Positions 9,616 through 37,364 of a stretch of DNA of 58,661 nt are shown one piece after another; within the stretch, counting starts at the first letter, position 1; every line of letters begins with the position of its first letter. Made by a program: the position numbers and the translations under genes. The notes below the pieces were generated by a model. That model was not told where the DNA came from and made no database searches. It saw only the letters and a list, made by a program, of their open reading frames with translations. The stretch lies in the NCBI GenBank assembly GCA_003577105.1, contig QEUQ01000007.1:1-58661 (forward strand), given 5' to 3'. This DNA comes from Acidobacteriota bacterium (GTDB lineage: Bacteria; Actinomycetota; Acidimicrobiia; ATN3).

Positions 9616-10445
9616 CTCCCCTCATCGTCTCCCGCTGGGTAAACCTCAAGCTCCACCAGCTTCGCTGCAATGAGGGTTGGATACCAGAAATCATGCATCA
9701 CGTAGTAGATGAACCCGACCCGCCCATCTAGGAAACCGAAGCGCAGGAAATAGCGGTATATAAAGAACGCAAAAGGTAACAAAAGCGGTGGCAACCGCGA
9801 GAGGACGTGCTTGTGAGTGAAGGCCCGCGCACGCCCCTCGGTGACTGACTTGTCGCGCTTGACCCCGGAACGGCGATCCTCCGCTTCTCGTTGGGCATAG
9901 AAGTCGTGCTTCATGACCCAATCGCGTAGCGGCTTCTTGTTCTCGTGAATCATGTGGTGCTTCAACCGGCCGGTCTGCCCCTCGACGTTCACGTACTCCA
10001 GAGTCCGGGTCTGCTCGACCACCTGGGAAACCGGAGGGTGAAGCAAATGAAGCAGGTAGTTGTTTTGATGCCCGCCGTATCGCAGGGGGCGGCCGAGAAA
10101 CCACATCTCCCGGCGAATGTAAAAACCCACCACTCCGTCTGAGGGGTCCGGAAGCTCCCGAAGCTCCTTGTTCAGTTCGGGCGTTAGTCGCTCGTCGGCA
10201 TCGAGGAAGAGAATCCAATCGACATCGGCACGCTCAGCAAGCACCCAGTTGCGAGTCTTGGCTTCGGTGACGTACTCGTAAAACACGATTTCCGCCCCGT
10301 ACTTCTCGCAGATCTCCAAAGTGCTGTCGGTGCTGCCGGAGTCAACAATCAAGACGTGGCAGTCAAGTCCATCGAGTGACGTGAGCACGTCTTCAATGTG
10401 CGCTTCTTCATTCTTCGTGAGGATTACTACTTCGAGCCGGCTCAA
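9612..10445 (-). CDS. Glycosyltransferase family 2 (WaaE/KdtX-like)
   Basis: A GT-A glycosyltransferase of about normal length (277 residues). It begins LEVVILTKNEEAHIEDVL, then VLIVDSGSTDSTLEI, and the metal-binding DxD-like LDADERL is at about 82-88. This combination matches the WaaE/KdtX-like branch of GT2, which adds sugars to core or glycan acceptors. The C-terminal half has hydrophobic stretches (LLLPFAFFIYRYF) that could anchor it to the membrane. It overlaps both neighbours by 4 nt. Acceptor and donor are unknown; the absence of other lipopolysaccharide genes argues for an exopolysaccharide role. Confidence 0.88.
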   Translation of the reverse strand: MSRLEVVILTKNEEAHIEDVLTSLDGLDCHVLIVDSGSTDSTLEICEKYGAEIVFYEYVTEAKTRNWVLAERADVDWILFLDADERLTPELNKELRELPDPSDGVVGFYIRREMWFLGRPLRYGGHQNNYLLHLLHPPVSQVVEQTRTLEYVNVEGQTGRLKHHMIHENKKPLRDWVMKHDFYAQREAEDRRSGVKRDKSVTEGRARAFTHKHVLSRLPPLLLPFAFFIYRYFLRFGFLDGRVGFIYYVMHDFWYPTLIAAKLVELEVYPAGDDEGS

Positions 10446-11647
10446 TGAGATGCAGCCGCCTCAATGATCTCCACAAGCTCTTCGCCGTATTGCTTCCAGC
10501 TCGGCAAGATTCGTTCTTGGTGTCGCTGGGCCTGAACGACCATTTCAGCCCTCTCCAGCCCATTGTCGGCCAGCTGGCGGATCTTTTCAGCGCCGGCCTC
10601 CGGCTCAAGTGGAGGGAAGTAGAACGCGCCCGGGCCGAGCATTTCCCTGTTGATGGCGGTGCCGGCTGCAACAACTGGCATGCCGGCGCTCGTCGCCTCG
10701 ATCATCGGGAATCCAAACGACTCGCACAGCGACGGATAGACAAAACAATCTGACTCACCAAATAGCCGATCGAGGTCGCTTCGGGGCAAATCGGCAAGGT
10801 TCCGGAAGCGCCCCGAAATCCCCCGCGTACGCATGGCGTCCTTCAGCTGCGCAGCAAGGCGCGGGTTGTCAGCTGGATTGGCGCAAATCGTGATTTCGAA
10901 GTCCAAGTCCATGTCTTCTAGTGCTCGCGCGAGCGGCACCAAATTGATATGCGCCTTGTGGGGTTGGAGCTGGCTTACATAGAGGATCCGGACCGGCTCA
11001 TCCCACGGTTTCGCGGAAGGCTCGACATGCTCCGCGTCCGAGCCATAGCGAAGGAGCTTGATCGGCACCCGTAATCCGTAGTCGGCGGCTACCCCGTCTG
11101 CCATTGCTTGGCTCGGTACGACGAGGACCGCTGATGACATCGCAACTCGACGCAACAGCTGAGCGCGCGCTCGAATCAGCGCTCGCGCCGTGAGACTCCT
11201 GTTGAACCCGGCGAATCGACAAAAATATGTCGAATCGGGGAGCATGCACACTCTGGGTACAGGCGGGCGCATCGCTCCGTAACCGAGTAGGGCGAGCGAG
11301 ATGTCCGCTCCCTCCCTGACCAGGATTTCTGAGTAGCTGTGATTGTCCCACTTGAGACGCTCATACGCGTTCTTGAGAGGTGCGTCGATGCGTCGAACCT
11401 CCTCAGGAAGGTCGATTTCAAGTGATGCGTCGAGGCAGAAGACGTACTCGTGGTGGGGGGCGGCCTCGACTAGGGCGCGAGCTGTCTCGTGAATCAACAG
11501 CGTCGCACCGCCCTCCTTGCCCTTGCGGGCGGCTACGGCATGTACGAATACTCTCAACTGAATTGCTTTTCCCGATCCGCGCTCCGCGTCGGCTGGAACC
11601 GCGTGCCCAAAGATTACCGGAAACCCACGATCCGGCGTCAGGGCCAT
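10442..11647 (-). CDS. Glycosyltransferase family 4 (GT1-like)
   Basis: GT-B glycosyltransferase. VRILYVSQLQPHKAHINLV opens the C-terminal nucleotide-binding domain, and YPSLCESFGFPMIEATSAGMPVVAA is the typical E-x7-E donor-binding segment. The first 30 or so residues from the ATG at 11647 are poorly conserved in type. A TTG at 11557 (giving LRVFVHAVAARKGKEGG) may be the real start, since the glycine-rich KEGGATLLIHE loop normally comes close to the N terminus. It is the first gene of the minus operon with the GT2 and methyltransferase genes, and is divergent from the next GT4. Confidence 0.87.
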   Translation of the reverse strand: MALTPDRGFPVIFGHAVPADAERGSGKAIQLRVFVHAVAARKGKEGGATLLIHETARALVEAAPHHEYVFCLDASLEIDLPEEVRRIDAPLKNAYERLKWDNHSYSEILVREGADISLALLGYGAMRPPVPRVCMLPDSTYFCRFAGFNRSLTARALIRARAQLLRRVAMSSAVLVVPSQAMADGVAADYGLRVPIKLLRYGSDAEHVEPSAKPWDEPVRILYVSQLQPHKAHINLVPLARALEDMDLDFEITICANPADNPRLAAQLKDAMRTRGISGRFRNLADLPRSDLDRLFGESDCFVYPSLCESFGFPMIEATSAGMPVVAAGTAINREMLGPGAFYFPPLEPEAGAEKIRQLADNGLERAEMVVQAQRHQERILPSWKQYGEELVEIIEAAASH

Positions 11648-11721
11648 GAGCTCAGGGTGATGAACTACGTCCTCTCGACGCGGAAGTAGGATCGTCGGAC
11701 CGACCAGGAGAAATCGTCAGC

Positions 11722-13185
11722 TTGAGGCAGCACCATATCGATGCCGGCGACCTGGCGATTACTCGCCGGGGACTGACCGGGAAAATTGCACGCATTGCGC
11801 TGAATCTGCGAGCACACTTGAGCGACGCAATTGTCACTGGCGACGAAGACACCGCTATGGCGATTCGGCGAATTACAGGCGGCACAGGAGCGCCGGTTCG
11901 GGTAGAGCAGTCACACCTGGTTCCCGATCCAAGACCTGCCGACTCGACGATGCCCGCAGAGGAGTTGCGGCGCGGACGCGTCATGGTGCTAAGCCCCGAC
12001 AACTGCACCTTTGGGGGCATCCAACGCTACACATGGACTTGGGGGGAAGCTGCTCTTGACCTCGGATACTCGGTGAGAATCGCAGCTCTCTGGAAACGCG
12101 GGACCGTCCAAGGGGAAGGCGTATCGAGGGTGCGCGCCGCCTGGTTCACCTTCAAGACCGTGATCACGGCGCTCGTCAGACGCCCTGACGCCGTCATATC
12201 GGCCCACCTTTCCCTTTCTCCTGTCGCGCTGATTATCAGGCGACTCACTGGGGCGCCATATGCAGTGACTCTCCACGGAAACGAGGCATGGCGAGGGGAG
12301 TTCGGCAAGCGGGCCGAGTGTGCAATCCGAAAGGCCGATCTGCGAATTCCCGTGAGTCACTTCACCCGCGATGTTCTGGCCGAAATGCTCGGTTTCGAAC
12401 CGCAACGCTTCTACGTAACCGGCGGACTCCTCGCACCTGAGCTTCAGCTCAGGGCCGAAAAGTACCGAGTCACCCCGTCACTTGAGCAGATGGCAGATGT
12501 GCCCTGCAACGAGCAGGCGCCGCGATACCTACTTACGGTAGCTCGCCTCGATCTCAATGCTCCCTACAAGAGACACGACCTGGTGCTCAGAGCCGTTGCC
12601 GCGCTAGCTAGCGATTACCCGGAACTGACGTACCACATCGTCGGAGATGGCCCGTACCGGACAGACTTAGAGGCGCTCACCGCTCAACTGAGAATTGAGG
12701 ACCGAGTCAAGTTCCTCGGGCGAATCTCGGAAGAGGCACTCGCAGAGGAAAACGCGAATGCCTACGCTTTCGTCATGCCTAGCCGAATTTCCCTCAAGCC
12801 CTCGGAGGGAGAGGGCTTTGGCTTCGTGTACCTCGAGGCCGGGATTTACGGGGTGCCATCGATTGCTGCCAACGGCGGAGGTTCGACCGAGACGGTGCTT
12901 GATTCGATCACCGGATTGCTCGTTGAGCCGGACTCACTTGAATCGCTTATCGCTGGTATCCGTGCGCTGCTCGACGACAAAGCACTGCGAGACCAACTCG
13001 GCGAGATGGCGCCGCTCCGGGCGATTGAATTCAGCTATCCGATCTTCCGACGCAAGTGCCGCGCAGTGCTGCTTGCGCTCACCGAAGATCAAGATCCCCA
13101 GTCGGTGGAGCCCGAGCACGACCCCCGCGCAATCGCCCAGTGGATTCTGACGGGCCCGGGGGGCGTCACCGGGGCGTCAGCATGA
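11722..13185 (+). CDS. Glycosyltransferase family 4, paralogue A with N-terminal extension
   Basis: GT-B glycosyltransferase with a start at TTG 11722; AGGAG lies 11 nt upstream. The GT4 core begins near residue 92 (VMVLSPDNCTFGGIQRYTW) and contains ISAHLSLSPVA, LTVARLDLNAPYKRHDLV and the SEGEGFGFVYLEAGIYGVP donor-binding segment. The first 90 residues form a separate module with the signature DEDTAMAIRRITGGTGAPVR and SHLVPDP. The same module occurs in the paralogue at 14765-16192, with differences concentrated at third codon positions, so it is genuinely translated. I do not recognise a family for this module. The two paralogues are about 70-75% identical by eye in the GT core and flank the initiating sugar transferase gene. 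Confidence 0.88.
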   Translation: MRQHHIDAGDLAITRRGLTGKIARIALNLRAHLSDAIVTGDEDTAMAIRRITGGTGAPVRVEQSHLVPDPRPADSTMPAEELRRGRVMVLSPDNCTFGGIQRYTWTWGEAALDLGYSVRIAALWKRGTVQGEGVSRVRAAWFTFKTVITALVRRPDAVISAHLSLSPVALIIRRLTGAPYAVTLHGNEAWRGEFGKRAECAIRKADLRIPVSHFTRDVLAEMLGFEPQRFYVTGGLLAPELQLRAEKYRVTPSLEQMADVPCNEQAPRYLLTVARLDLNAPYKRHDLVLRAVAALASDYPELTYHIVGDGPYRTDLEALTAQLRIEDRVKFLGRISEEALAEENANAYAFVMPSRISLKPSEGEGFGFVYLEAGIYGVPSIAANGGGSTETVLDSITGLLVEPDSLESLIAGIRALLDDKALRDQLGEMAPLRAIEFSYPIFRRKCRAVLLALTEDQDPQSVEPEHDPRAIAQWILTGPGGVTGASA

Positions 13186-13214
13186 TCGCCTTTGCCACCG
13201 TTGGCGGGCGATCA
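13183..13214 (+). other. Nested hairpin at the stop codon of GT4 paralogue A
   Basis: TGATCGCC (13183-13190, starting with the stop codon) pairs with GGCGATCA (13207-13214), and GCCA/TGGC form an inner stem with a CCGT loop. It is followed by AAAATGATAGG rather than a T-run, so it may stabilise the message end or attenuate transcription before the sugar transferase gene instead of terminating it. Confidence 0.5.
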
Positions 13215-13388
13215 AAATGATAGGATGAGCAGGCAAACTAGGGGCCCGCGACGGCGGGACAACTGCGTGAAACGTCTAGGGGCGGAACAGCGTTAATCGC
13301 GATTGGGGAGCTGGCAAGTCACCGAGAACGTCGTGGCAAGCCAAGTTTGTAGCACCTCGACAACCGATGAGGGTAGGAGCAGCAAGAA

Positions 13389-14744
13389 GTGCGCGCCGCT
13401 GCAATTCGACGGACCCTATATGTCGCATACAGCCTCGTCTTTCTCGCGCTGGCACTCGCATTGCTGGGCACTCACTCGGCGCTTCAGCAGCGCAGCGTAT
13501 TTTCAGATTTCGTCTACTGGGCAATAGCAATCGCCGCAGTGGCGTCCATTTCGGCGTGGGTCTTCCAGCTTGGCGACACGACTCGCGGGTGGGGATTTGC
13601 TGAGGGGATTTGGGCGGGGTTGAAGGCCTCGACACTCACCCTATTGATAATCTCGGCCGCCGGACTGCTAGCGGTCAGGGATATTCCGCGACAGGTCACG
13701 CTTGGTTTCTTCGCGCTGATGCCACTCGCAGTGCTGTTGGTCAGAATTCCATTTCAGCGGGCCGCTGAGTCAATGGCTGCCAAGCGGCTGGTAGTCGTGG
13801 GTACGGAGTCTGAAGTCGAGGAGCTCAGCTCAGAGCTTGTGCCGCACGGCAATGACTACAAGATCGTCGCTCATGTAAACGGCTTCATGGGCAAGCCCCG
13901 TCAATCTGATCTTGGTGAGTGGCTCGAGATCGGCGAGAACCAGATTCGAGCCGCGGTCGCCGACAACCTCGCAGACATGATTCTCATTAGCCCCGAGAAG
14001 CTCAACGACTTCGAGCTGCTGGCCCAGATCTCGGAGATACACTCAGGGGGCGTCAGAGTCCGAACGTTTGGTGAGTTCTACGAGGAACGCTTTGGCAAGG
14101 TACCTCTTTCGCAGATAAACGAGGCTTGGTTTCTCTTCGACTCCGCCGAGCTGCATCGCTCAACATATATGCGATTCCGCCGTGCTCTCGATCTCGTCTC
14201 AGGTGTTTTCGGCACGTTGATCTTGGCCCTCGCCTATCTCCCAGTTGCCGCAGCTATCAAGCTTCAAGATGGCGGACCCGTCTTCTACACGCAGGAGCGC
14301 GTGGGTAAGGGCGGGAGAGTCTTCAAGTTGATCAAGTTTCGGACGATGCGAGTTGACGCCGAAAGCGACGGGCCTCAGTGGGCCAAACCGGGAGACACCC
14401 GCACAACCAGAATCGGCCAGTTCCTGAGAAAGTCTCGCCTTGACGAGCTTCCCCAGTTCGTAAATGTGCTCCGTGGTGACCTCAGCTTGATCGGACCCAG
14501 GGCCGAGCGACCCGAATTCGTTGCCCAACTCGAGGAGCTGATCCCCTTTTACTCTCGTCGCCACCTAATCCGACCCGGTTTGACCGGCTGGGCACAGGTT
14601 TCCTACCAATACGGTTCAAGCGTCGAGCACGCGATGGAAAAGCTGCAGTACGAGTTCTACTACATGCGCTATCAGTCAGTATTGCTCGACCTCAGAATCA
14701 TGGCTAATACCGCCCGGGTGGTCTTCTCGATGAGTGGCGTCTGA
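13389..14744 (+). CDS. Polyprenyl-phosphate sugar-1-phosphate transferase (WcaJ/WbaP type)
   Basis: Starts glycan assembly by moving a hexose-1-phosphate from a nucleotide sugar onto undecaprenyl phosphate at the inner face of the membrane. The N-terminal half has four hydrophobic segments (about residues 10-30, 40-60, 75-98, 105-125), then a CoA-binding-like nucleotide domain (RLVVVGTESEVEEL). A further membrane segment precedes the catalytic PGT domain with VFYTQERVGKGGRVFKLIKF, RLDELPQFVNVLRGDLSLIG and RPGLTGWAQVSYQYG. The GTG start has GGTAGGAG about 8 nt upstream. Length (451) is usual. It lies between the two paralogous GT4 genes, implying that they act early on the same lipid-linked intermediate. 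Confidence 0.95.
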   Translation: MRAAAIRRTLYVAYSLVFLALALALLGTHSALQQRSVFSDFVYWAIAIAAVASISAWVFQLGDTTRGWGFAEGIWAGLKASTLTLLIISAAGLLAVRDIPRQVTLGFFALMPLAVLLVRIPFQRAAESMAAKRLVVVGTESEVEELSSELVPHGNDYKIVAHVNGFMGKPRQSDLGEWLEIGENQIRAAVADNLADMILISPEKLNDFELLAQISEIHSGGVRVRTFGEFYEERFGKVPLSQINEAWFLFDSAELHRSTYMRFRRALDLVSGVFGTLILALAYLPVAAAIKLQDGGPVFYTQERVGKGGRVFKLIKFRTMRVDAESDGPQWAKPGDTRTTRIGQFLRKSRLDELPQFVNVLRGDLSLIGPRAERPEFVAQLEELIPFYSRRHLIRPGLTGWAQVSYQYGSSVEHAMEKLQYEFYYMRYQSVLLDLRIMANTARVVFSMSGV

Positions 14745-14764
14745 CGGGCAGCGATACAAGTCCG

Positions 14765-16192
14765 TTGAAGTTGCGTCGCGTCTGCGCTGATAACAAGGCG
14801 TTCACGGGTTCTGGATTCATTCGCCGAGTGGCGCGCATGCGACTCATCGTGAGCGCGCATGTCGCCGATGCGCTATCAGTTGACGACGAGGACACTGCCA
14901 TGGCGCTTCGTAAGGTGACGGGCGGAACCGGTGCCGCCATAAGAGTCGCCGAGTCGCACATGGTTCCCGACCCCCGACCGGGCGAGGCATTTGAGCCTGG
15001 TGACACTCTGACTGGCCGAGGAGTGCTCATCCTCACTACGGACAATTGCACTCCGGGCGGAATTCAGCGCTACGCATGGACTTGGGGCGAGGCGGCTCTC
15101 GATCTGGGCCGCGCGGCTCGGATTGCATCACTCTGGAAGCGCGGCGCCGTAAACGGCGTAGGAGTCTCGAGGCTGAGGGCGGCCTGGTTCACTCTCAAGG
15201 TACTCGCAACGGCCCTGATCCGCCGGCCCCAGGCAGTGATCGCTGCGCACTTGGCACTTTCACCCGTAGCGATGATCGTCAAGAGACTGCTCGGTACCCC
15301 TTACGCCGTGGCGCTCCATGGAGATGACGCCTGGGCCGAGCCGGTCGGCATGACCCGCCAAGCAGTATGCAGTGCTGACTTGCTGATTCCCGTCAGCCAT
15401 TTCACCCGAGAAGTGGTCACCGAGATGCTCGAGTTAAGCCGAGATCGCTTCTATGTGACAGGGAGTATCCTCTCGCCGAAGCTCCAGCTGAAGGCGATGG
15501 ATATCCAACGGGAGTCGGCGGGCGCGGAGGCAGTTACTGCAGATTCAGGCAAGGATGTCTCGGGCAACCAGACCCTGCTCACGGTCTCACGCCTCGATCT
15601 CAATGCTCCCTACAAACGCCATGACCTTGTGCTTCGGGCAGTCGCATCGCTGGCGCCCGAATACCCGGACCTCAAATACCACATCATCGGGGACGGCCCG
15701 TATCGAACCGACCTGGAGACGCTGGCCGCGGAGCTGGAGATCGAGGACCGCGTGAGCTTCCTCGGTCGAATCCCAGAGGAATTGCTCGCCGACGAAAATG
15801 CCGCTGCCTATGCCTTTGTAATGCCGAGCAGAATTTCACTTGACCCACCCGAGGGTGAGGGCTTCGGACTTGTCTATCTTGAAGCAGGAATCTACGGAGT
15901 ACCATCGGTGGCAGCGAACGGCGGCGGCTCGGCTGAGACGGTTTTGGACGGCGTGACAGGTATCCTTGTCGAGCCAGACTCGCTGGATTCACTTGTGGCT
16001 GGGATTCGAAAGCTCCTCGACGATGAGGCGCTCAGGGGCCAGCTCGGTAAGACAGCGCCCCTGAGGGCAATCGAATTCAGCTATCCGGTCTTTCGCAGGA
16101 AGTGCGCGGCAGTCCTCGCGGCCCTCACCGAGGGCGAGAATCCCCTGCAAGTTGAGGCGGAACATGATCCTCATGCAATTGCACCTGGATAG
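14765..16192 (+). CDS. Glycosyltransferase family 4, paralogue B with N-terminal extension
   Basis: Near relative of the GT4 at 11722-13185, with the same unusual N-terminal module (DEDTAMALRKVTGGTGAAIR, SHMVPDPRPGE), then the GT-B core with TTDNCTPGGIQRYAWTWGEA, LTVSRLDLNAPYKRHDLV and PEGEGFGLVYLEAGIYGVPS. The start is a TTG 20 nt after the sugar transferase stop, so the genes are probably co-transcribed. The C-terminal tail VEAEHDPHAIAP matches the tail of paralogue A. Retention of two copies suggests that they transfer the same or similar sugars to different positions, or have diverged in donor choice. The function of the N-terminal module is unknown. Confidence 0.88.
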   Translation: MKLRRVCADNKAFTGSGFIRRVARMRLIVSAHVADALSVDDEDTAMALRKVTGGTGAAIRVAESHMVPDPRPGEAFEPGDTLTGRGVLILTTDNCTPGGIQRYAWTWGEAALDLGRAARIASLWKRGAVNGVGVSRLRAAWFTLKVLATALIRRPQAVIAAHLALSPVAMIVKRLLGTPYAVALHGDDAWAEPVGMTRQAVCSADLLIPVSHFTREVVTEMLELSRDRFYVTGSILSPKLQLKAMDIQRESAGAEAVTADSGKDVSGNQTLLTVSRLDLNAPYKRHDLVLRAVASLAPEYPDLKYHIIGDGPYRTDLETLAAELEIEDRVSFLGRIPEELLADENAAAYAFVMPSRISLDPPEGEGFGLVYLEAGIYGVPSVAANGGGSAETVLDGVTGILVEPDSLDSLVAGIRKLLDDEALRGQLGKTAPLRAIEFSYPVFRRKCAAVLAALTEGENPLQVEAEHDPHAIAPG

Positions 16193-23049: not shown

Positions 23050-26036
<2,987 letters not shown>

Positions 26037-26040
<4 letters not shown>

Positions 26041-27335
26041 TCGAGCGATACACCCTCCCTGAGATCGCGGAGATCTGGAGTGATCAGTCGCGCTTTGAAG
26101 CCTGGCTCGAGGTAGAGACCCTCGCTGTCGAGGGATGGGCAGAGCTCGGCGTGATCCCGGAGCAGAGCGCTCGCGCGATTCGCGAACGAGCAACTGTCTC
26201 GGCCAAGCGCGTCAACGAAATCGAGAAGGTCACCGACCACGACGTAGCCGCATTCGTCCAGGCCGCCGCAGAATCCGTTGGCGAGGAAGGGCGCTGGATT
26301 CACTACGGCCTGACCTCTTCGGACGTCGTCGACACCGCGCTAGCGACACTCATGGTCAGGGCGATGCGACTGATCGAGGAGGAGGCCGACGCGCTCTTTC
26401 TCGCTACTCGCGACCTCGCATTTGAGTATCGCGACACGCCGTGCGTAGGGCGCACCCACGGCGTGCACGCTGAGCCAACGACATTTGGCGCCAAGATCGC
26501 CGGCTGGGCCTTCGAGATCGACAGGGGGAGACGCCGTCTCGCGAGGGCGCGCGAGACCGTATCGGTCGGCAAGCTTTCAGGTGCGGTCGGTACTTATAAC
26601 GCGGTACGCCCCGAAGTCGAGCAATTTGTCTGCGAGAACCTAGGCCTTGTGCCAGAGGGCGCTTCGACCCAGGTTGTGGCCCGAGATCGCCACGCGGAAT
26701 ACATGTGGGCAATCGCGGCAATGGGAGCGAGCCTCGAACGTTTCGCTCAGGAGATCCGCCACTTGCAGCGGACTGAGGTCCGCGAGGCCGAGGAGGCCTT
26801 TGGGCGAGGGCAAAAAGGCTCATCGGCCATGCCGCACAAGAAGAACCCGATCACGTGTGAGCGAATTTGCGGACTTGCCCGGATCTTGCGAGCGAACTTG
26901 GGAGCGGCACTCGAAGACGTGGCGCTCTGGCATGAGCGAGATATCAGCCACTCGTCTGTCGAGCGAGTGATCCTTCCGGACTCGACCGCGCTCATTCACT
27001 ACATGCTGGTCAGATTTAGGAGAATCGTCGAGAACATGCGGATCTACCCCGACCGCATGCTGGAGAACCTCAACGCGAACGGAGGTCTTGTATTCAGCCA
27101 GCGAGTTCTGCTCGCACTTGTTGAGTCAGGGCTGTCGCGAGATGACGCCTACGCGAGTGTGCAGCGCAACGCTCTCCGGTGCTGGGAAGAAGGCGGCGAC
27201 TTCCGGTCACTTCTTGAGGCAGACTCGGAGGTAACGGAACATCTCAGCGAAGAGCGCTTGGATCAGTGTTTCGACATTGGCGCGTCGCTAATGGGTATCA
27301 CTCCAATCTTCGAGCGCTTAGGAACAATCACATGA
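26037..27335 (+). CDS. purB: Adenylosuccinate lyase
   Basis: Removes fumarate in two steps of purine synthesis: SAICAR to AICAR and adenylosuccinate to AMP. Length is 432 residues. The fumarase/aspartase signature GSSAMPHKKNPITCERI is present at about 261-277, with VGRTHGVHAEPTTFG (catalytic His region) and the N-terminal RYTLPEIAEIWSD. It is translationally coupled to purD and purC by ATGA overlaps. In this operon it therefore serves the purC product (SAICAR) and the purA product directly. Confidence 0.97.
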
Positions 27336-28222
27336 CGCTGGAGCGAATCGGGAGTGGCAAAGTCCGCGAACTGTACGACGCAGGACCAGGCTTGCTTCTC
27401 CTAGTAGCGACCGACCGAATTTCGGCCTACGACGTCGTCCTCGATGACGAAATTCCCGACAAAGGGCGGGTGCTGACGGGCCTATCGCTCTTCTGGATCA
27501 CGCAGCTCGACTCGATAGTGAAAACGCACTTGGTGACGAGCGATCCTGGTCGCTTCCCGAGCGAAGCCGCCGTAGTTGACGACCTGGCGGGGCGAGCAAT
27601 GCTTGTCAGGCGTGCCGAAATGCTCCCAGTCGAATTCATTGTCAGGGGATATCTCTTCGGATCCGGCTATAAGGAGTACCTCGAAAAGGGAACCGTCTCG
27701 GGGATCCGACTTCCAACAGGGCTTCAGCTTGCCAGCCGCCTCGAGTCACCCTTGGTGACCCCGACCACCAAGGCAGAGGAAGGTCACGACGAGGCAATTA
27801 CCCCAGAGCAAGCCGCCGAGCTCTGTCCGCCTGGTACATACGACAAAGCAGCCGAGGCAGCACTTGCGGTTTACGAGCGCGCTCATGAACTCGCGCTCGA
27901 TGCCGGTGTTGTGATCTGTGACACAAAGTTCGAATTCGGAGTGGCCGACGGCGAGCTGCTGCTCGCCGACGAAGTCCTGACCCCCGACTCGTCGAGGTTC
28001 TGGCCGGCCGCCCAGTACAGAGCTGGCACGGACCAGCCAAGCTTCGACAAGCAATATGTGCGCGGCTATCTCGACAACACCGATTGGGATAGGACTCCGC
28101 CTGCCCCCCGTCTGCCTGCTTCAGTGGTCGCCGAGACCCGTGCGAAGTACATAGAGGCATTTGAACGTCTCACGGGCGAGACTTTCGCGGCCTACTTGGA
28201 TCGGTACGGCGCCTCGGTATAA
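27332..28222 (+). CDS. purC: SAICAR synthetase
   Basis: Condenses CAIR with aspartate using ATP. From the ATG at 27332, which overlaps the purB stop, the protein is 296 residues and begins MTLERIGSGKVRELYDAG, the expected N terminus; an earlier in-frame ATG at 27266 would sit well inside purB and is not needed. Other motifs are ATDRISAYDVVLDDEIPDKG, VEFIVRGYLFGSGYKEY, KFEFG and LADEVLTPDSSRFWPA. It is longer than the roughly 240-residue Bacillus-type enzyme and closer to the eukaryote-like/actinobacterial form. The end of the gene overlaps a promoter for the next gene. Confidence 0.96.
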   Translation: MTLERIGSGKVRELYDAGPGLLLLVATDRISAYDVVLDDEIPDKGRVLTGLSLFWITQLDSIVKTHLVTSDPGRFPSEAAVVDDLAGRAMLVRRAEMLPVEFIVRGYLFGSGYKEYLEKGTVSGIRLPTGLQLASRLESPLVTPTTKAEEGHDEAITPEQAAELCPPGTYDKAAEAALAVYERAHELALDAGVVICDTKFEFGVADGELLLADEVLTPDSSRFWPAAQYRAGTDQPSFDKQYVRGYLDNTDWDRTPPAPRLPASVVAETRAKYIEAFERLTGETFAAYLDRYGASV

Positions 28223-28223
28223 T
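28196..28223 (+). promoter_or_regulatory. Sigma70-type promoter overlapping the purC stop
   Basis: TTGGAT at 28196-28201, a 16-nt spacer, and a perfect TATAAT at 28218-28223 that includes the purC stop codon. It would start transcription near 28230, about 90 nt before the BY-kinase gene, making that gene at least partly independent of the purine operon. Confidence 0.6.
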
Positions 28224-28317
28224 TGAGAACGCTTGCGGTGGCTCGCCGTGTCGAGTCCGCGCATTCCGATAAGAGCCGCCACGGCCGCACCACTTTCCGA
28301 CTGCGGAGCATATCTAC

Positions 28318-30042
28318 GTGACCGAATCACACGCGACCACCCTTGAGCTGCGCGATTACCTTGGGATTCTGAGGCGGCGCAAGTGGTTCATCATCCTCCC
28401 AACTGTAGTGATTCTTGTTGCCGCAATTACCGCGTCACTCTTGACCACGCCGATCTACGAGGCGTCTGCCGACGTGCTGATCCAGTCAAACAAGCGAAGC
28501 AGCGTGATTGCTGACGTGGCAATGCCCGCAGAAGACCCTGCTCGAGAACTCCAAACTCAAATCCAAGTGATCACAAGCCGACCGGTAGCCGAAGAGACCG
28601 CCAAGCGTCTCCAGCTCAACGTTCCGCCTGAGGCAATTCAGGCCCGGGTAACGGCCCAGGTTCTAGGTCAAACATCAATTATTCGGGTTCGGGCCCGTGA
28701 CGCGTCGGCTTCTCTCGCACGCGACATCGCTAACGGAGTCTCGGCGACCTACATCGACCTTCGGCGAAAGTCCGCACTAGACAGCTTCGCCCAACAGGCA
28801 AACGATCTTCAACAAAAGGTCGACGAGGCTACTGCTGAGCTTCAGCAGCGCGACGCCGAACTAGCGGATGCCATATCGAAGACCAGGGGCGAGAAGACAA
28901 GCGACACCGGTTCACAGGCACTAGTTGCCACACTGACAAATCGGCGAGAACAAGCGGCCGCTGTTCAAAGCTTCTGGAAGACGGCCCTCGACAAACTACA
29001 GATCCAAAGCAACCTGCAGACCTCGTCTGCCGAGACCGTCGCTCCCGCGACGCTGCCCACCGCACCAGTCGAGCCAAAGCTCTCCCGAAAGGTGATCTTC
29101 GCGCTGACGATCGGAATCCTCCTAGGTGCAGGTATCGCATTTCTCGTTGAATACCTCGACGATTCGCTCCGATCAAAGCAAGACGCTGAGAAGGCATTTG
29201 GTGCGCCGATTCTCGGCATGATTCCGCGGGCGCAATCTTGGAACGACCGCAGGAGCGCAATGCTGCTGAGCGTCAAGGATCCCGCGTCAACGACCGCTGA
29301 GGCCTATCGGAGTGTGCGAACCAATCTTCAATTCTCCCTCCTCGATTCGGGCTCGCGCGTAGTGCTGGTCACCAGCCCGTCGGCAAGCGAGGGCAAATCG
29401 ACGACGGCCGCCAACATTGCCGTCGTGCTTGCGCAATCGGGGAAGAGCGTGATCATCGTTGACTGCGACCTGAGGCGCCCGAGGGTCCACAAGTTCTTCG
29501 AGTTGCGTAACACCGAAGGGGTAACGACAGCGATTCTCGCCGAGCGACCATTGGTGGACTTGCTTCAGAGGCCTCGAATCGCGGGTGCGCCACCCTCGCT
29601 TCTGGCGCTCACCTCGGGACCGATTCCGCCGAACCCGGCTGACCTTCTGGGGTCTGCCCGGGTGTCCGAGCTGATCGAGACTCTCGGTACTCTTGCCGAC
29701 TACGTGGTCATCGACAGCCCTCCGATCGTCCCTCTCTCGGACGCGGCCGTACTGGCGCCCAAGACCGACGGAGCAATCATTGTCGCCAAGGCCGGCCAAT
29801 CGAGCAGGCGGGCCAGCGCTCAGGCCGCCGAGAAGTTGGATGCAGTCGGCGCCGAGCTCCTCGGCGTTGTGCTCAACGAGGTCACGCCCAACTTCGGTGA
29901 GCCCGGCTACTACTACGATTACTACTACTACTACCAGTCCTACCGCCCGATTCCCGAGAAGCAAGGGTCAAAGAGGGGCGGCGGACGAAGGTCGAAGGAC
30001 TCGGGTGGCGCCCGCGCGGCACAGACGGCGGGCTCTCGCTAG
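28318..30042 (+). CDS. Chain-length regulator with tyrosine autokinase (Wzz-BY-kinase fusion)
   Basis: Controls polymer length and export at the membrane through cycles of tyrosine autophosphorylation. The 574-residue protein has a Wzz domain with TM1 at about 22-45, a coiled-coil periplasmic/external segment (about 155-235), and TM2 at about 258-278. The cytoplasmic kinase has Walker A SASEGKSTTAANIA near 354-367, Walker A' VIIVDCDLRRPR and Walker B YVVIDSPPIVPL. The tail at about 530-545 is a tyrosine cluster (YYYDYYYYYQSY), the autophosphorylation site, followed by a basic segment. The start is a GTG. Fusion of the two halves is more often described in Proteobacteria, while many Gram-positives split them. 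It presumably works with the Wzy-like polymerase upstream. Confidence 0.93.
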   Translation: MTESHATTLELRDYLGILRRRKWFIILPTVVILVAAITASLLTTPIYEASADVLIQSNKRSSVIADVAMPAEDPARELQTQIQVITSRPVAEETAKRLQLNVPPEAIQARVTAQVLGQTSIIRVRARDASASLARDIANGVSATYIDLRRKSALDSFAQQANDLQQKVDEATAELQQRDAELADAISKTRGEKTSDTGSQALVATLTNRREQAAAVQSFWKTALDKLQIQSNLQTSSAETVAPATLPTAPVEPKLSRKVIFALTIGILLGAGIAFLVEYLDDSLRSKQDAEKAFGAPILGMIPRAQSWNDRRSAMLLSVKDPASTTAEAYRSVRTNLQFSLLDSGSRVVLVTSPSASEGKSTTAANIAVVLAQSGKSVIIVDCDLRRPRVHKFFELRNTEGVTTAILAERPLVDLLQRPRIAGAPPSLLALTSGPIPPNPADLLGSARVSELIETLGTLADYVVIDSPPIVPLSDAAVLAPKTDGAIIVAKAGQSSRRASAQAAEKLDAVGAELLGVVLNEVTPNFGEPGYYYDYYYYYQSYRPIPEKQGSKRGGGRRSKDSGGARAAQTAGSR

Positions 30043-30141
30043 AGCGCACGATGGGTTCCAAGATGCGACTGACAGCGCACCGAATAGCAGAAGAAATGTC
30101 TTCGAATCCCCGCTGAAATAGATAATCGGTAAAGATGTTAA

Positions 30142-30234
30142 GTAACTGATTGGCGGAGTCGATTAGTTACACGGGTCGGGCGGACCCATTCCCGGGGCGT
30201 AAGACGGAGCTACGCGACCAGAGGGAGATCAGCC
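30142..30234 (+). promoter_or_regulatory. Structured leader with three hairpins ahead of the Cys-rich protein gene
   Basis: Three stem-loops follow one another. The first, 30142-30170, pairs GTAACTGATTG with CGATTAGTTAC (11 pairs including three G-U wobbles, 7-nt loop). The second, 30173-30187, pairs GGGTC with GACCC. The third, 30197-30215, pairs GCGTA with TACGC. The ribosome-binding site AGGGAGAT follows, then the TTG start at 30235. None has a terminator T-run. It does not match a riboswitch class I can recall. Confidence 0.4.
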
Positions 30235-30936
30235 TTGGGCTGGTGCTACACATTCGGAGTAAATTGCGACAGCGGGTGCAAACACCCCATGTTGGTTCGG
30301 GACACGCTGGACGCGTGCGAGTGCGAAGTTTGCGGAATTTCCTGCACAGGCCGGTTCGCAAATTGCTGGAGATCGATCTTTCAGGCGAGCGGCAGAGTTG
30401 TGCAGATGCGCTGCCTACCGCCATCACTGCCGCAGCCGTCTGAAGCTGCTTCTGCCTCGGGACTAGCCGAGGGGACTGAGCCGCTGATCACCAATTCGCC
30501 CACCGCGAGTGCGCAGGGCGAACCGGGCTCCGGTGCCGGTGCCAGTGCCGACTTGGCCGAAGCGACCACCGGAGAGCGGGGGGCCGACCTGAGCCAAGAC
30601 CTGATGGCGCTCCAGGAAAGAGTCAGTGAGATTGTGGGCTTGATCCAAGAGCTAAGCCTCGAAAACGAGGCCCTCCGAAACGCACTTGCCTCGATCACTG
30701 CTCGAATCGAAGATGTGGATTCGTCACTGAAGTCAGCGGGGGCATCGATGAGACCTGTCACTCACGTCGTTCGCGCTTCAGGCGAATCAGGAGAGAGCTT
30801 CACGAGGCCAGGCCGGGCTGTTGCACATCCAGATGTCGTGCATCGCCAGCAATACCCAAACACTGGGCCATCAGCTGATGATGAGTTCGTGACCCATCCC
30901 GTCGCTGCTGAAGGATCAGGCGGAGGCATCGGCTAG
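30235..30936 (+). CDS. Cysteine-rich protein with Ala/Gly linker and coiled coil, unknown function
   Basis: I do not recognise a family. From the TTG at 30235, which has AGGGAGAT at good distance, the 233-residue product starts with a dense cysteine module: C4, C11, C15, C28, C30, C33, C37, C44 and C60, including CECEVCG and NCDSGCKH. The spacing suggests metal binding or several disulfides; no signal peptide is visible. A low-complexity Ser/Ala/Gly/Glu linker (about 70-120) follows, then a heptad-like coiled coil (LSQDLMALQERVSEIVGLIQ onward, about 120-165) and a polar tail. It lies 192 nt after the BY-kinase gene on the same strand. The sequence is compositionally consistent with being coding, but the product's existence should be treated as probable, not certain. 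Confidence 0.6.
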   Translation: MGWCYTFGVNCDSGCKHPMLVRDTLDACECEVCGISCTGRFANCWRSIFQASGRVVQMRCLPPSLPQPSEAASASGLAEGTEPLITNSPTASAQGEPGSGAGASADLAEATTGERGADLSQDLMALQERVSEIVGLIQELSLENEALRNALASITARIEDVDSSLKSAGASMRPVTHVVRASGESGESFTRPGRAVAHPDVVHRQQYPNTGPSADDEFVTHPVAAEGSGGGIG

Positions 30937-31068
30937 GGAACTCAGGGTGGTCCGGCGCTTGGGCGCGTCGGCAAGGGCGGTGTGTGTCGTCTTGCCGAAT
31001 TCCTGAGAAGCGTCAGTACCTTTGCAGCGAGGGCGCCTGCGGTCGGTGCTCTCGGGCTCGTTCTAGGA

Positions 31069-31107
31069 CTCAAGAGCTTGAGTTGCTCTAGACCTCAAGA
31101 GCTTGAG
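31069..31107. repeat. Two 25-nt-spaced copies of a hairpin-forming repeat
   Basis: CTCAAGAGCTTGAG occurs at 31069-31082 and 31094-31107; each copy is an inverted repeat (CTCAAG/CTTGAG) and is followed by a GCTCnaGAC core. They sit between the convergent ends of the Cys-rich protein gene and the VPYTG protein gene, just past the stop of the latter, so they may act in termination or mRNA end protection. No long T-run accompanies them. Confidence 0.55.
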
Positions 31108-31119
31108 GCGCTCCAGACC

Positions 31120-31632
31120 TCAGACAGGGATCCGGCGGCGTCGGAAGGTGACTACGAGCACCGTTCCCACCAGCAGCAGGCTCGCGCCGACAATCGCAAT
31201 CATGATCAGATTGCGTGTGCCCGTATATGGAACGGTGCTGGTTGCGGGCTGCGATGAAGAAACGGTAATCGTGTTGCAGAGCTGCTGTGAACTGCCGGTA
31301 GGTGTCACGCCGGTATAGCAAACCGTGTATGTGCCAGGTGTAGAAGGAGCAGTCATGGTTCCGACTGCGCAGCCGTCGGCGCCCACAACGATCGTCCCGA
31401 CGTTTTGACCGCCGATCGTAACGGTGACCGTGCTACCCGGCTCGAATCCACACCCGCGACCTTCAAATGTGCCGCCGGGACCCGGAGTATTGGTGCTCAG
31501 ATCCAGCACGTTGGGGGGAGGGGTAGGCGTGTAGGTCTGTGCCAAAGCACTGGTGCCCACGACCATGAACACGGCTGCGACGGCCATAGCAACGAGGGCG
31601 TGGCGCCCCATGCGACCCCACCTGTTGATCAT
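31120..31632 (-). CDS. Small secreted protein with VPYTG wall-sorting-like C terminus
   Basis: A 170-residue exported surface protein. The ATG at 31632 has AGGAG 5 nt upstream; a longer frame from 31701 lacks this. The signal peptide (about residues 9-32) ends at SALAQ. The mature part has a Pro-rich start (YTPTPPPN) and one Ig-like/beta-sandwich domain with paired cysteines (RGCGFEPGSTVTVTI, DGCAVG, YTVCYTG, LCNTI). The C terminus has VPYTG, a hydrophobic helix and RRRR, the layout of an LPxTG-type sorting signal with Val for Leu and Tyr for the x position. No sortase is encoded in this window, so a distant sortase is assumed. It could also simply be a membrane-anchored protein. Confidence 0.75.
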   Translation of the reverse strand: MINRWGRMGRHALVAMAVAAVFMVVGTSALAQTYTPTPPPNVLDLSTNTPGPGGTFEGRGCGFEPGSTVTVTIGGQNVGTIVVGADGCAVGTMTAPSTPGTYTVCYTGVTPTGSSQQLCNTITVSSSQPATSTVPYTGTRNLIMIAIVGASLLLVGTVLVVTFRRRRIPV

Positions 31633-31806
31633 GCGTGCTCCTCCCCGGATATTGGGCTTGTTGCTCGTATTCCCGTATTGGCCGCCGGCATTGTGCCACA
31701 AAACGGCGGCTTGTGTCCGGCCGACATGCCTAGTCAGCGATCATCCCCTCGCTGAAAGGACATGGATGGGATCGCCGAGCATCGACAATCTTACTCTATC
31801 GAGTCC

Positions 31807-33882
31807 TTAACGGCGCCAACTAGCCGACCATTCCACCGCTTCTTGCGGATTTCCGTCAAAAAGCAGCGTCCTTCCGCCAAGAGCTGCAAATCCAGAGGGT
31901 TCTGCCACAGTACCCGAGTCAAATGATACCTCGGCACGTATTGAATCAGGGCGAATCCTCGGCTGAGGCACATATAGCAATTCGAACCTGTTCTTCGCAG
32001 CGCCGGACGCATCGTCGCTTGCAGGCGGCGTCGGAACCCGATACTCGAGCTCCACGGTTCGCGTCTCCCCCGGGCGCACCAGAACCGCAACCGAAAAGGC
32101 AGCGTGGCCGGCATCGGGCAAAACGCTGAGCAGCGAGTCTTTCGATTCGCCGCCGGTCACAAACGACCCCTCAGGTGCATAGAGAGTCAGGTAACCGAAG
32201 TAGTCCCCGGGCTTCCTACTCTCGAGCTTCTCATCTCCACCGAGTATGTACTCGGGAAGATCTGCAGTCGCCTGATTCTGGAGGGTCATCTTGACATTCA
32301 CGCTCGATGATCCGTCTGGAGCAACCCGCGATCGGTAGTCGATCGATTGCTTCATGTAGTAGTCCAGCTTGCTTCCTGAGAAGTTCTGGAGGGTGTATGA
32401 GAAGAAGCCGCCCGTGGGCTTCTTCAGCTGCCCGCCAATAGGCATGCCCGCCAGGCTTGCCTGCTCGCCGGCGTGGCGTGAATAGATCATGAGCCGCCGC
32501 TCCCTTGCGGCCTGGTCAAACGCGCTCCCCAAGACCCGCGCCCGCTCACCTGAAATCTGAAAAGCAGCAGTGATCGCTCGCTGCGCGGCAACGCCCAGAA
32601 ACTCCTTTCGGACTTCTTGAGAGGCAAACGACTTGTAAGCACCATTCATCGCGAAGTCGGCGAAGCTCCGCTCGTCAAGAGTCACGGGGGGATCCTGGAA
32701 CGCAATTGGCCCCGTTGCTCTAAGCAGGTAACCGAGGGCAACGCCGTCGATGAATATCGCTCCGTCAAGCTGCTGGCCTGTCCGCTCCTTGTACATGGAT
32801 GTGAGGATCTCGCCGACTATCGAGAACTCCGGCGAAACGTTGGCCCGCTGCCAAGCAAAGGTGGGGTTGGCCCACGACCACCGATCGACGAATTCCTGAC
32901 TAAGCGGAACCTGTGCGGGAGCGCTCAGCTTGATTTCCGTGATCGGGCCGGAGCGACTCCAGCTGATGGCGCCAGAGTTCGCCTCGATGATGCCGTACGA
33001 AAGGATCATGCCCTCAGCGTTCATCTCCGCATTGTTGCCGATCGCCACCAGGTAGCGGCGGGGGCCATCGCCTCCGAGAAATGGCGGCAGCACGGTCAGA
33101 TACCCGTCGAGCTTCGCGAGCGCATCTCGGGCTTCTACCAGCTTCTCCAGCATTTCTTCCCTGGCGCCCGCGACGCTCCCGGCAAGGCTTCCCGCGGGGC
33201 TCCCGGCCACCTGGGCCGCAGCTGCTTCAACCCGTATGTGAGCAGAGCGCACCGCTGGCTGGATCTCCTCGACCGCCTTGAGATCTACCCGGCCGTCGGC
33301 GAGCGGGAAGACCAGTTCGCCCTTTGGCCCCTGGAGGCGGCGTGCCGCATCGAGGATGTTCTTGCCCGCGTCTGCTGTAGAAGCGCCCGCCGAAGCCATG
33401 GCCGACACAGCGCGCAAGTTCGGCCCTGCGACGGGGAACATCTTCGCGATCTTCAGCTCAAAGGCCGAGTCGAGTGCGTTTCTTCCACGTATGAAGGAAT
33501 CAGCTGCCCGCCCAAGGTGATCACGGGCCGAGCGCAGGTCCTTCGCCTCGAGAGCGTCGACTGCCTGCTGTGATTCGGACCTCGCGACCTTGAGTTCTGC
33601 CGAGACCTTTTGCAGCCGAACGAGTGCCAGCACGACAAGTGCGAACGCGACTGAGGCAAGAAGAGCTACTGCTATGTAGATTCGGCGCTTGATCTTTGCG
33701 CGCCGCCGCCGGGCCGCGGAGCTGCGCCGCCGCCTCTTCTTTCTTTGCATGTGCACTTGGGGTTCCATGCGGGGAGTTCGGCCCGGGCGCGCATCAACTG
33801 ATGGTGAGTCCGAGGACGCAGAGCCCACGGGGCTTGACGCCTCTCCACCGGAACCGGCGATCGACGAATCTTGTTCTGACAT
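31807..33882 (-). CDS. DUF4012 membrane-anchored protein
   Basis: A 691-residue protein found in actinobacteria, often near surface-polysaccharide genes; its function is unknown. A disordered Ser/Gly-rich start is followed by a strongly basic stretch (about 44-68, RKKRRRRSSAARRRRAKIKRR). A single transmembrane helix lies at about 69-90, then a helical region. The DUF4012 core begins at PRRYLVAIGNNAEMNAEGM (about 268-286). The C-terminal half is beta-rich with SVNVKMTLQNQATADLPEYI. Basic residues before the helix put the N terminus inside and the core outside. It is on the opposite strand from both purine operons, facing away from purS. A role in attaching or modifying surface polymers would fit the neighbours but is inference. 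Confidence 0.85.
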   Translation of the reverse strand: MSEQDSSIAGSGGEASSPVGSASSDSPSVDARPGRTPRMEPQVHMQRKKRRRRSSAARRRRAKIKRRIYIAVALLASVAFALVVLALVRLQKVSAELKVARSESQQAVDALEAKDLRSARDHLGRAADSFIRGRNALDSAFELKIAKMFPVAGPNLRAVSAMASAGASTADAGKNILDAARRLQGPKGELVFPLADGRVDLKAVEEIQPAVRSAHIRVEAAAAQVAGSPAGSLAGSVAGAREEMLEKLVEARDALAKLDGYLTVLPPFLGGDGPRRYLVAIGNNAEMNAEGMILSYGIIEANSGAISWSRSGPITEIKLSAPAQVPLSQEFVDRWSWANPTFAWQRANVSPEFSIVGEILTSMYKERTGQQLDGAIFIDGVALGYLLRATGPIAFQDPPVTLDERSFADFAMNGAYKSFASQEVRKEFLGVAAQRAITAAFQISGERARVLGSAFDQAARERRLMIYSRHAGEQASLAGMPIGGQLKKPTGGFFSYTLQNFSGSKLDYYMKQSIDYRSRVAPDGSSSVNVKMTLQNQATADLPEYILGGDEKLESRKPGDYFGYLTLYAPEGSFVTGGESKDSLLSVLPDAGHAAFSVAVLVRPGETRTVELEYRVPTPPASDDASGAAKNRFELLYVPQPRIRPDSIRAEVSFDSGTVAEPSGFAALGGRTLLFDGNPQEAVEWSASWRR

Positions 33883-33972
33883 GGCGCAATCGTAGCTAAC
33901 GGCGTATCAGGCAAAGCGGCACCTGGAGCGGCGCGTGTTCAGATACGTCACAAACAGCGGGAGCGGTTGTGG

Positions 33973-34004
33973 CTCACCCTATCGGTGGCAGGTAGGGTGA
34001 GAAC
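33973..34004 (+). promoter_or_regulatory. Hairpin covering the purS ribosome-binding site
   Basis: CTCACCCTA (33973-33981) pairs perfectly with TAGGGTGAG (33993-34001), with an 11-nt loop. The right arm contains the purS Shine-Dalgarno AGGGTGAG, 3 nt from the ATG at 34005. A folded leader would hide the site, so translation of the second purine operon could be controlled here. No sensor domain is evident upstream. Confidence 0.5.
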
Positions 34005-34268
34005 ATGCGCTCGAAAGTCACCGTTCTGATCCGCCTCAAAGAAGGAATCCTCGATCCGCAGGGGAAGGCGATCGAAGAGAGTCTCCCCGCACTTGGATAC
34101 GGCGGAGTCGAATCGGTGAAGGTCGGCAAGGTGATCGAGATGATCGCAGAAGGCGCCGACGCCGCAGAGATCGAATCACGCGTACGGGCCATGTGCGACG
34201 CGCTCCTCGCCAATCCGGTTATCGAGGACTACGAGGTTGAACTCACAGCCGCGAGGGAGGGTGGGTGA
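34005..34268 (+). CDS. purS: FGAM synthase subunit PurS
   Basis: Small structural subunit (87 residues) of the three-part formylglycinamidine ribonucleotide synthase, bridging PurQ and PurL and helping channel ammonia. It begins MRSKVTVLIRLKEGILDPQG, the usual N terminus, and has the expected GYGGVESVKVGKVIE segment and the C-terminal MCDALLANPVIEDYEVEL. The start is ATG 34005, inside a hairpin-flanked leader. The purQ GTG overlaps its stop by 4 nt. It opens the second purine operon. Confidence 0.95.
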   Translation: MRSKVTVLIRLKEGILDPQGKAIEESLPALGYGGVESVKVGKVIEMIAEGADAAEIESRVRAMCDALLANPVIEDYEVELTAAREGG

Positions 34269-35002
34269 GCGAACAAGGCGGCCCGCTCGTTGCCGTCATC
34301 GTCTTTCCCGGCACCAACTGCGAGCTAGATGTTGTCTGGGCACTCGACTGCGCGGGCGGACGCGGCGAACTCGTCTTCCACGACGTGAGCGATCTGAGTA
34401 GGTACGACGGTGCGATCCTTGCGGGTGGGTTTGCCCACGGCGACTACCTTCGCCCAGGCGCAATCGCCAGGTTCTCACCGGTCATGGATGGTCTTCGCGA
34501 GCTTGCACAGGCCGGCAGGCCAGTTGTCGGCATCTGCAACGGATTCCAAGTTCTGTGCGAGGCCGGTTTCCTCCCGGGCGCCTTGCAGAAGAATGCGGGC
34601 CTCACATTCATTTGCGCTCCCGCGAACCTGAAAGTGGAACGAACCGCCAGCGCCCTCACCTCCCTGTGCACACAAGGCCAGATCTTGGAGAACGTCCCGA
34701 TAAATCACTTCGAGGGCAACTACACGGCCGACGAAGCAACCTTGAGGTCGATCGAGGAGCGCGGTCAAGTCATTCTCAGATATTGCGGGCCAAGCGGAGA
34801 CACCAGCGAAGAGTGGAATCCGAACGGTTCCGCGAATTCGATTGCCGGAATCTGCAACGAAGCGGGCAACGTCGTCGGCCTCATGCCGCATCCGGAGAGG
34901 GCGATGGAAGAGATCACGGGATCGACATCGGGGCGCCCGCTACTCGAGTCCTTTGTCGAATCTGCCCGGCAGAGCCACGGCGCTGCACTGGGCGTCAAGT
35001 AG
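34265..35002 (+). CDS. purQ: FGAM synthase glutaminase subunit PurQ
   Basis: Class I glutamine amidotransferase that releases ammonia from glutamine for PurL. The 245-residue protein has VAVIVFPGTNCELDVVWALD at the N terminus and the catalytic Cys in VVGICNGFQVLCEAG. The His and Glu of the triad are in GLMPHPERAMEE near the C terminus. The GTG start overlaps the purS stop. The gap to purL is 25 nt. Length is about 15-20 residues above the Bacillus form, which is not unusual. Confidence 0.96.
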   Translation: MSEQGGPLVAVIVFPGTNCELDVVWALDCAGGRGELVFHDVSDLSRYDGAILAGGFAHGDYLRPGAIARFSPVMDGLRELAQAGRPVVGICNGFQVLCEAGFLPGALQKNAGLTFICAPANLKVERTASALTSLCTQGQILENVPINHFEGNYTADEATLRSIEERGQVILRYCGPSGDTSEEWNPNGSANSIAGICNEAGNVVGLMPHPERAMEEITGSTSGRPLLESFVESARQSHGAALGVK

Positions 35003-35027
35003 CCGCGCCAATCGTGGTTTGTCGAGC

Positions 35028-37364
<2,337 letters not shown>

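Follow-up and report, generated by a model that had tools for sequence, protein, structure and literature searches.

Why does a gene for a small cysteine-rich protein lie beside the gene for a polysaccharide chain-length kinase (BY-kinase), and what could its product do there? In the window analyzed here, meaning the whole 58,661-nucleotide stretch of DNA, the two genes are neighbors. The preliminary description, made from the letters of the window, had pictured a metal- or disulfide-stabilised head on a coiled-coil stalk, possibly a sensor or scaffold in glycan export.

The gene and its N-terminal Cys module

The gene occupies 30235..30936 of the + strand and encodes 233 aa from a TTG start, with a syntenic orthologue in G001, a second genome of the same order that belongs to a different family from the window's. 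Codon bias, which had been proposed as a check on the frame, marked it as coding: its log-likelihood was the best of the six frames, at 14.8, where shuffled versions averaged -37.8 (sd 9.0). Comparison of the module with the G001 orthologue gave pN 0.33 and pS 0.82, the changes being mainly synonymous. The TTG start is supported because G001 has ATG at the same residue and because M1-G2 was identical across all 29 members of the family described below. The frame is a genuine gene, and the homologue search proposed for the Cys module returned this 29-member family, with the orthologue in G001.

The N-terminal Cys module (30235..30420, +; 62 aa; alignments A4/A5) carries C4, C11, C15, H17, C28, C30, C33, C37, C44, and C60. 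The claimed dense segment of nine Cys was there on counting, with all nine in residues 1-62 and zero further downstream. In window numbering, seven Cys (C4, C15, C28, C30, C33, C37, and C44) were invariant in the 29 members, as were M1, G2, F7, G8, and M19, while H17 was near-invariant (>90% of the 29 members; exceptions D in L063 and A in L048). C11 and C60 are extra Cys of the window and G001 proteins. We named and defined this group here as the 'MGWC' Cys-module family. The window protein fits its signature, M-G-x-C-x2-F-G-x(6)-C-x3-M-x(6,8)-C-x-C-x2-C-x3-C-x(6,7)-C, right at its N-terminal end and matched profile A5 (29 rows, the window itself being one) with E 6e-21. As seven Cys and one His are the number for two tetrahedral zinc sites, we infer two metal sites; the seven invariant Cys and near-invariant H17 fit such a pair.

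A two-module profile (window and G001) first drew distant members of the class, and refined profiles gave the 29 modules, all in one class. From gene content and the leaderless signals described below, this class probably belongs to the Actinomycetota and is likely Acidimicrobiia. An even draw of the class had the module in 4 of 395 genomes, and in the order of G224 matches at E 0.001 were found in 20 of 397 genomes, two of them weak and partial. The phylum draw outside the class gave nothing convincing: a weak match in G830 was rejected as a 64-aa frame across a longer opposite-strand hydrolase-like ORF, and the frame of another in G555 contains a stop. Viral contigs, plasmids, and phages yielded zero relatives, and a search of genome contigs with the window protein and a two-row profile, the MGWCHEFG form not being represented, yielded no match. 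Family proteins range from 178 to 1235 aa with a shared architecture, and the module stands at the N-terminus in every member.

Searches of Pfam, NCBIfam, PHROGs, and PADLOC with the module gave weak matches only and no family. The weak Pfam matches of members were to Zn_ribbon_DUF2089, AZUL, and zf-LSD1 (best E 0.0084), with just 7 of 20 members tested reaching E 1 or better, and the window protein matched none of the known zinc-finger Pfam families above the curated cut-off. The best PDB sequence match had E 0.014 across 16 residues. AlphaFold models of the module were of low confidence (mean pLDDT 57.6 with 20 rows and 65.9 with 29 rows, the central part of the second reaching 75-80), and Foldseek against the PDB with the second, low-confidence model as query found nothing significant (best E 2.3); the fold search is weak evidence because the models stayed low-confidence. 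The module resembles zinc-ribbon and treble-clef domains in its short-spaced Cys pairs, small size, and probable structural metal, but differs in its pattern, C-x10-C-x-H-x(8,10)-C-x-C-x2-C-x3-C-x(6,7)-C, and the low-confidence model brought no fold match. The literature search found no description of the module. The architecture that the preliminary description did not recognise thus matched no Pfam, NCBIfam, PHROG, PADLOC, or PDB family and, judged by sequence, the Cys-module family is new to the libraries and to the literature found, with a clear signature.

Coiled coil, regulator link, and cellular location

The module is followed by a disordered-looking linker rich in Ala/Ser/Pro/Gly in translation (30421..30609, +), a predicted coiled coil with heptad periodicity at residues 126-167 (30610..30735, +), and a C-terminal tail (30736..30933, +) that is missing from the G001 orthologue. 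The coiled coil proposed earlier held up well, as the 42-residue heptad stretch was hydrophobic at 11 of 12 a/d positions and 0 of 5000 shuffles were as periodic. The heptad test showed a strong segment after the linker in both the window and G001 proteins, and a Pro/Ala-rich linker followed by a coiled coil was also judged by eye in other members. A helix motif, FDxLRxEL...RQQ, forming a recognisable first helix, was common to 12 relatives; it was not convincing in the window protein (score 17, p 0.05).

Six members, all in genome family f50, end in or precede a SARP-type BTAD domain. BTAD (PF03704) scored above cut-off in L049, L052, and an ORF in a different frame that overlaps the L051 member at its end; for L054, L087, and L089 the shared C-terminus was recognised from sequence similarity, not by domain scan. 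At L051 the Cys-module ORF (9714-13424) and the overlapping BTAD ORF (13265-15007) reflect either a frame break or two genes. The C-terminal BTAD of SARP/BTAD regulators (PF03704) is thus shared with some relatives but absent from the window protein, in which a Pfam scan found no BTAD and no recognised DNA-binding domain; in contrast to those regulators, the N-terminal Cys module and coiled coil match no Pfam model.

The window protein showed neither a clear signal peptide nor a membrane helix (maximum 19-residue hydropathy 0.73). Because it lacks a convincing membrane segment and has BTAD-linked relatives, it is probably cytoplasmic. An exported or disulfide-bonded head was rejected on the missing signal peptide and the BTAD-linked relatives, and a head on a stalk beyond the membrane is unlikely. 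Of the two ways of stabilising the head suggested at the outset, metal is favored over disulfide since the protein appears cytoplasmic.

Gene order and neighbors

The gene order in both the window and G001 was purB-purC-BY-kinase-Cys-module gene-LPXTG-DUF4012-purSQL, with the genes for the LPXTG-like and DUF4012 proteins on the opposite strand. The block from BY-kinase to DUF4012 sits inside a purine-biosynthesis run (window 24691-37364), as it does in G001. Apart from the Wzz/BY-kinase gene (28318..30042, +; PF02706, E 3.3e-12), no Wzz-domain gene was found in the window genome. The kinase has a Tyr-rich C-terminal tail, YYYDYYYYYQSY (window 29910-29940), similar in G001. On the - strand follow a wall-anchor-like protein (31120..31701) with a VPYTG sorting signal, LPFTG in the G001 orthologue, and a DUF4012 protein (31807..33882; PF13196, E 3.7e-28). 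The placement between a kinase and a wall-sorted protein was therefore read correctly, the LPXTG-like end resting on a PF00746 score of 15.1 bits, below the 20-bit cut-off. Two copies of a perfect 14-bp palindrome, CTCAAGAGCTTGAG, lie at window 31069-31082 and 31094-31107, in the interval that separates the Cys gene from the LPXTG-like gene converging on it, and are candidates for an operator or a terminator. The Bifidobacterium longum EPS locus has DUF4012 beside wzz among glycan genes (PMC5412050), a pairing that it shares with the window locus; the latter adds the Cys-module gene, which did not appear in the portion of the Bifidobacterium gene table covered.

A BY-kinase gene directly adjoined 6 of the 29 members (window, L063, L059, L091, L093, and L094). 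It was upstream on the same strand in the window, L063, and L059, and divergent in L091, L093, and L094. The gap between kinase and member coding sequences was 33-194 bp in five of these, and in L091 the Wzz match ends 109 bp from the member's start. These six members fall into three regions of the module tree, and its deepest split, which is supported, has some of them on either side; many other inner branches are weak. In G000, G001, and G888, the sole Wzz-domain gene found is the member's neighbor. A count over seven genomes gave 14 Wzz-domain genes, six adjacent to a member and four more within about 25 kb of one on the same contig; this overstates the general rate of adjacency because five of the seven genomes were picked after adjacency had been seen. 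Genetic linkage to the BY-kinase is kept beyond the window's order, although adjacency is not interaction.

An envelope-glycan gene (BY-kinase, DUF4012, CapD, Ugd, GalE, glycosyltransferase, or RodA) lay within 5 kb of 16 of the 29 members, and nearly half of the family was not near glycan genes. In L062 (3-2690), a single ORF fuses DUF4012 to a Glycos_transf_4 (WecA-like) domain. Other members neighbor hrcA/dnaJ (L048, L050, and L053), dnaG/rpoD (L055 and L056), or the cytochrome-oxidase genes ctaB/ctaD (L051, L052, L054, and L089), and the hrcA/dnaJ, dnaG/rpoD, and ctaB neighbors suggest other or broader roles. The proposed link to glycan export therefore stands in part: the BY-kinase association recurs beyond the window's order, but these neighbors and the six BTAD-tied members make the family broader than glycan export.

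Candidate roles and translation signals

We tentatively favor, at somewhat under an even chance, a zinc-stabilised coiled-coil protein that acts as a cytoplasmic adaptor or scaffold of envelope-polysaccharide machinery and also as a regulator input domain. The module (C4, C15, H17, C28, C30, C33, C37, and C44) would fold around probably two zinc ions and serve as a protein-docking head, and the coiled coil would form a dimer or oligomer. Head and coiled coil together would bind inner-face parts of the BY-kinase/DUF4012 system or, in relatives, perhaps CapD or RodA complexes, and in the six BTAD-linked relatives the same head, N-terminal to or just ahead of the SARP/BTAD regulator, would be its input domain. 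This adaptor reading draws on the synteny with G001, the invariant module, recurrent BY-kinase adjacency, glycan neighbors, the BTAD link, and the lack of a membrane segment; it is weakened by the near-half of the family off glycan loci, the low-confidence fold models, and the H17 exceptions.

A transcription regulator or RNA-polymerase-associated protein, whose module binds DNA, a sigma factor, or polymerase and whose stand-alone members control neighboring envelope operons, is rather unlikely. The BTAD-linked members, the hrcA and rpoD neighbors, and the divergent arrangement with the BY-kinase in L091, L093, and L094 speak for it, but the window protein has no recognised domain for binding DNA, the BTAD region would alone supply this function where present, and in the window, G001, and L059 the gene lies downstream of the kinase in the same orientation. 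Distinctly less probable is a thiol/redox sensor whose Cys cluster reversibly binds zinc or Fe-S and signals oxidative stress to partners in the envelope or in regulation. The seven invariant Cys with CxC-x2-C-x3-C spacing and the location of some members beside hrcA/dnaJ or cytochrome-oxidase genes suit such a sensor; nothing specific contradicts it, but structural zinc sites show such spacing just as well, and no recurring redox partner gene was seen beside the BY-kinase-linked members.

Translation signals differed within the family. A TANNNT motif beginning between -15 and -11 relative to the start codon occurred in 23 of 29 members (shuffles: mean 0.66, maximum 4/29 in 2000), mostly without a Shine-Dalgarno site (examples L052:9325, L057:9962, and L094:9455), and in 50 of 321 neighboring genes, whose start codons were chosen crudely. 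A TANNNT some 12 bp ahead of the start is the hallmark of leaderless genes, which are frequent in Actinobacteria (PMC3160421), and these 23 relatives probably have leaderless mRNAs. The window and G001 copies have instead a leader and a Shine-Dalgarno site, and we infer that they may be co-transcribed with the BY-kinase. The ribosome-binding site called good in the preliminary description, AGAGGGAG (30220..30227, +), is plausible but weaker than stated, AGGAGG in G001 being better. The structured leader was likewise overstated: the window leader folded little better than its shuffled versions (z -1.45), and its main, imperfect hairpin (30142..30170, +) is not conserved in G001. A riboswitch in this leader was rejected on that z score and for want of an Rfam match. 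That the Cys-rich gene start acts mainly through translation, as a regulatory peptide or attenuator like leaderless Cys-rich upstream ORFs, is very improbable: the leaderless mark (PMC3160421) would suit it, but the encoded proteins, of 178-1235 aa, share an architecture and have low module pN/pS, and in the window and G001 copies a Shine-Dalgarno site takes the place of that mark.

Taken more widely than the adaptor reading, the family would be a new class of metal-stabilised cytoplasmic adaptors in one actinobacterial class, with a single portable N-terminal module coupling envelope-polysaccharide machines (the BY-kinase, possibly CapD or RodA complexes) to one another and to SARP-type transcription; we regard this extension as unlikely, though less so than the redox sensor. 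A module listed nowhere before is now defined, with a clear signature, a syntenic BY-kinase partner, and natural links to regulator domains. Beyond the kinase/phosphatase pair, few cytoplasmic partners are known for BY-kinase chain-length systems, and a conserved neighbor of the BY-kinase is therefore a direct handle on the organization of glycan assembly in poorly studied actinobacteria.
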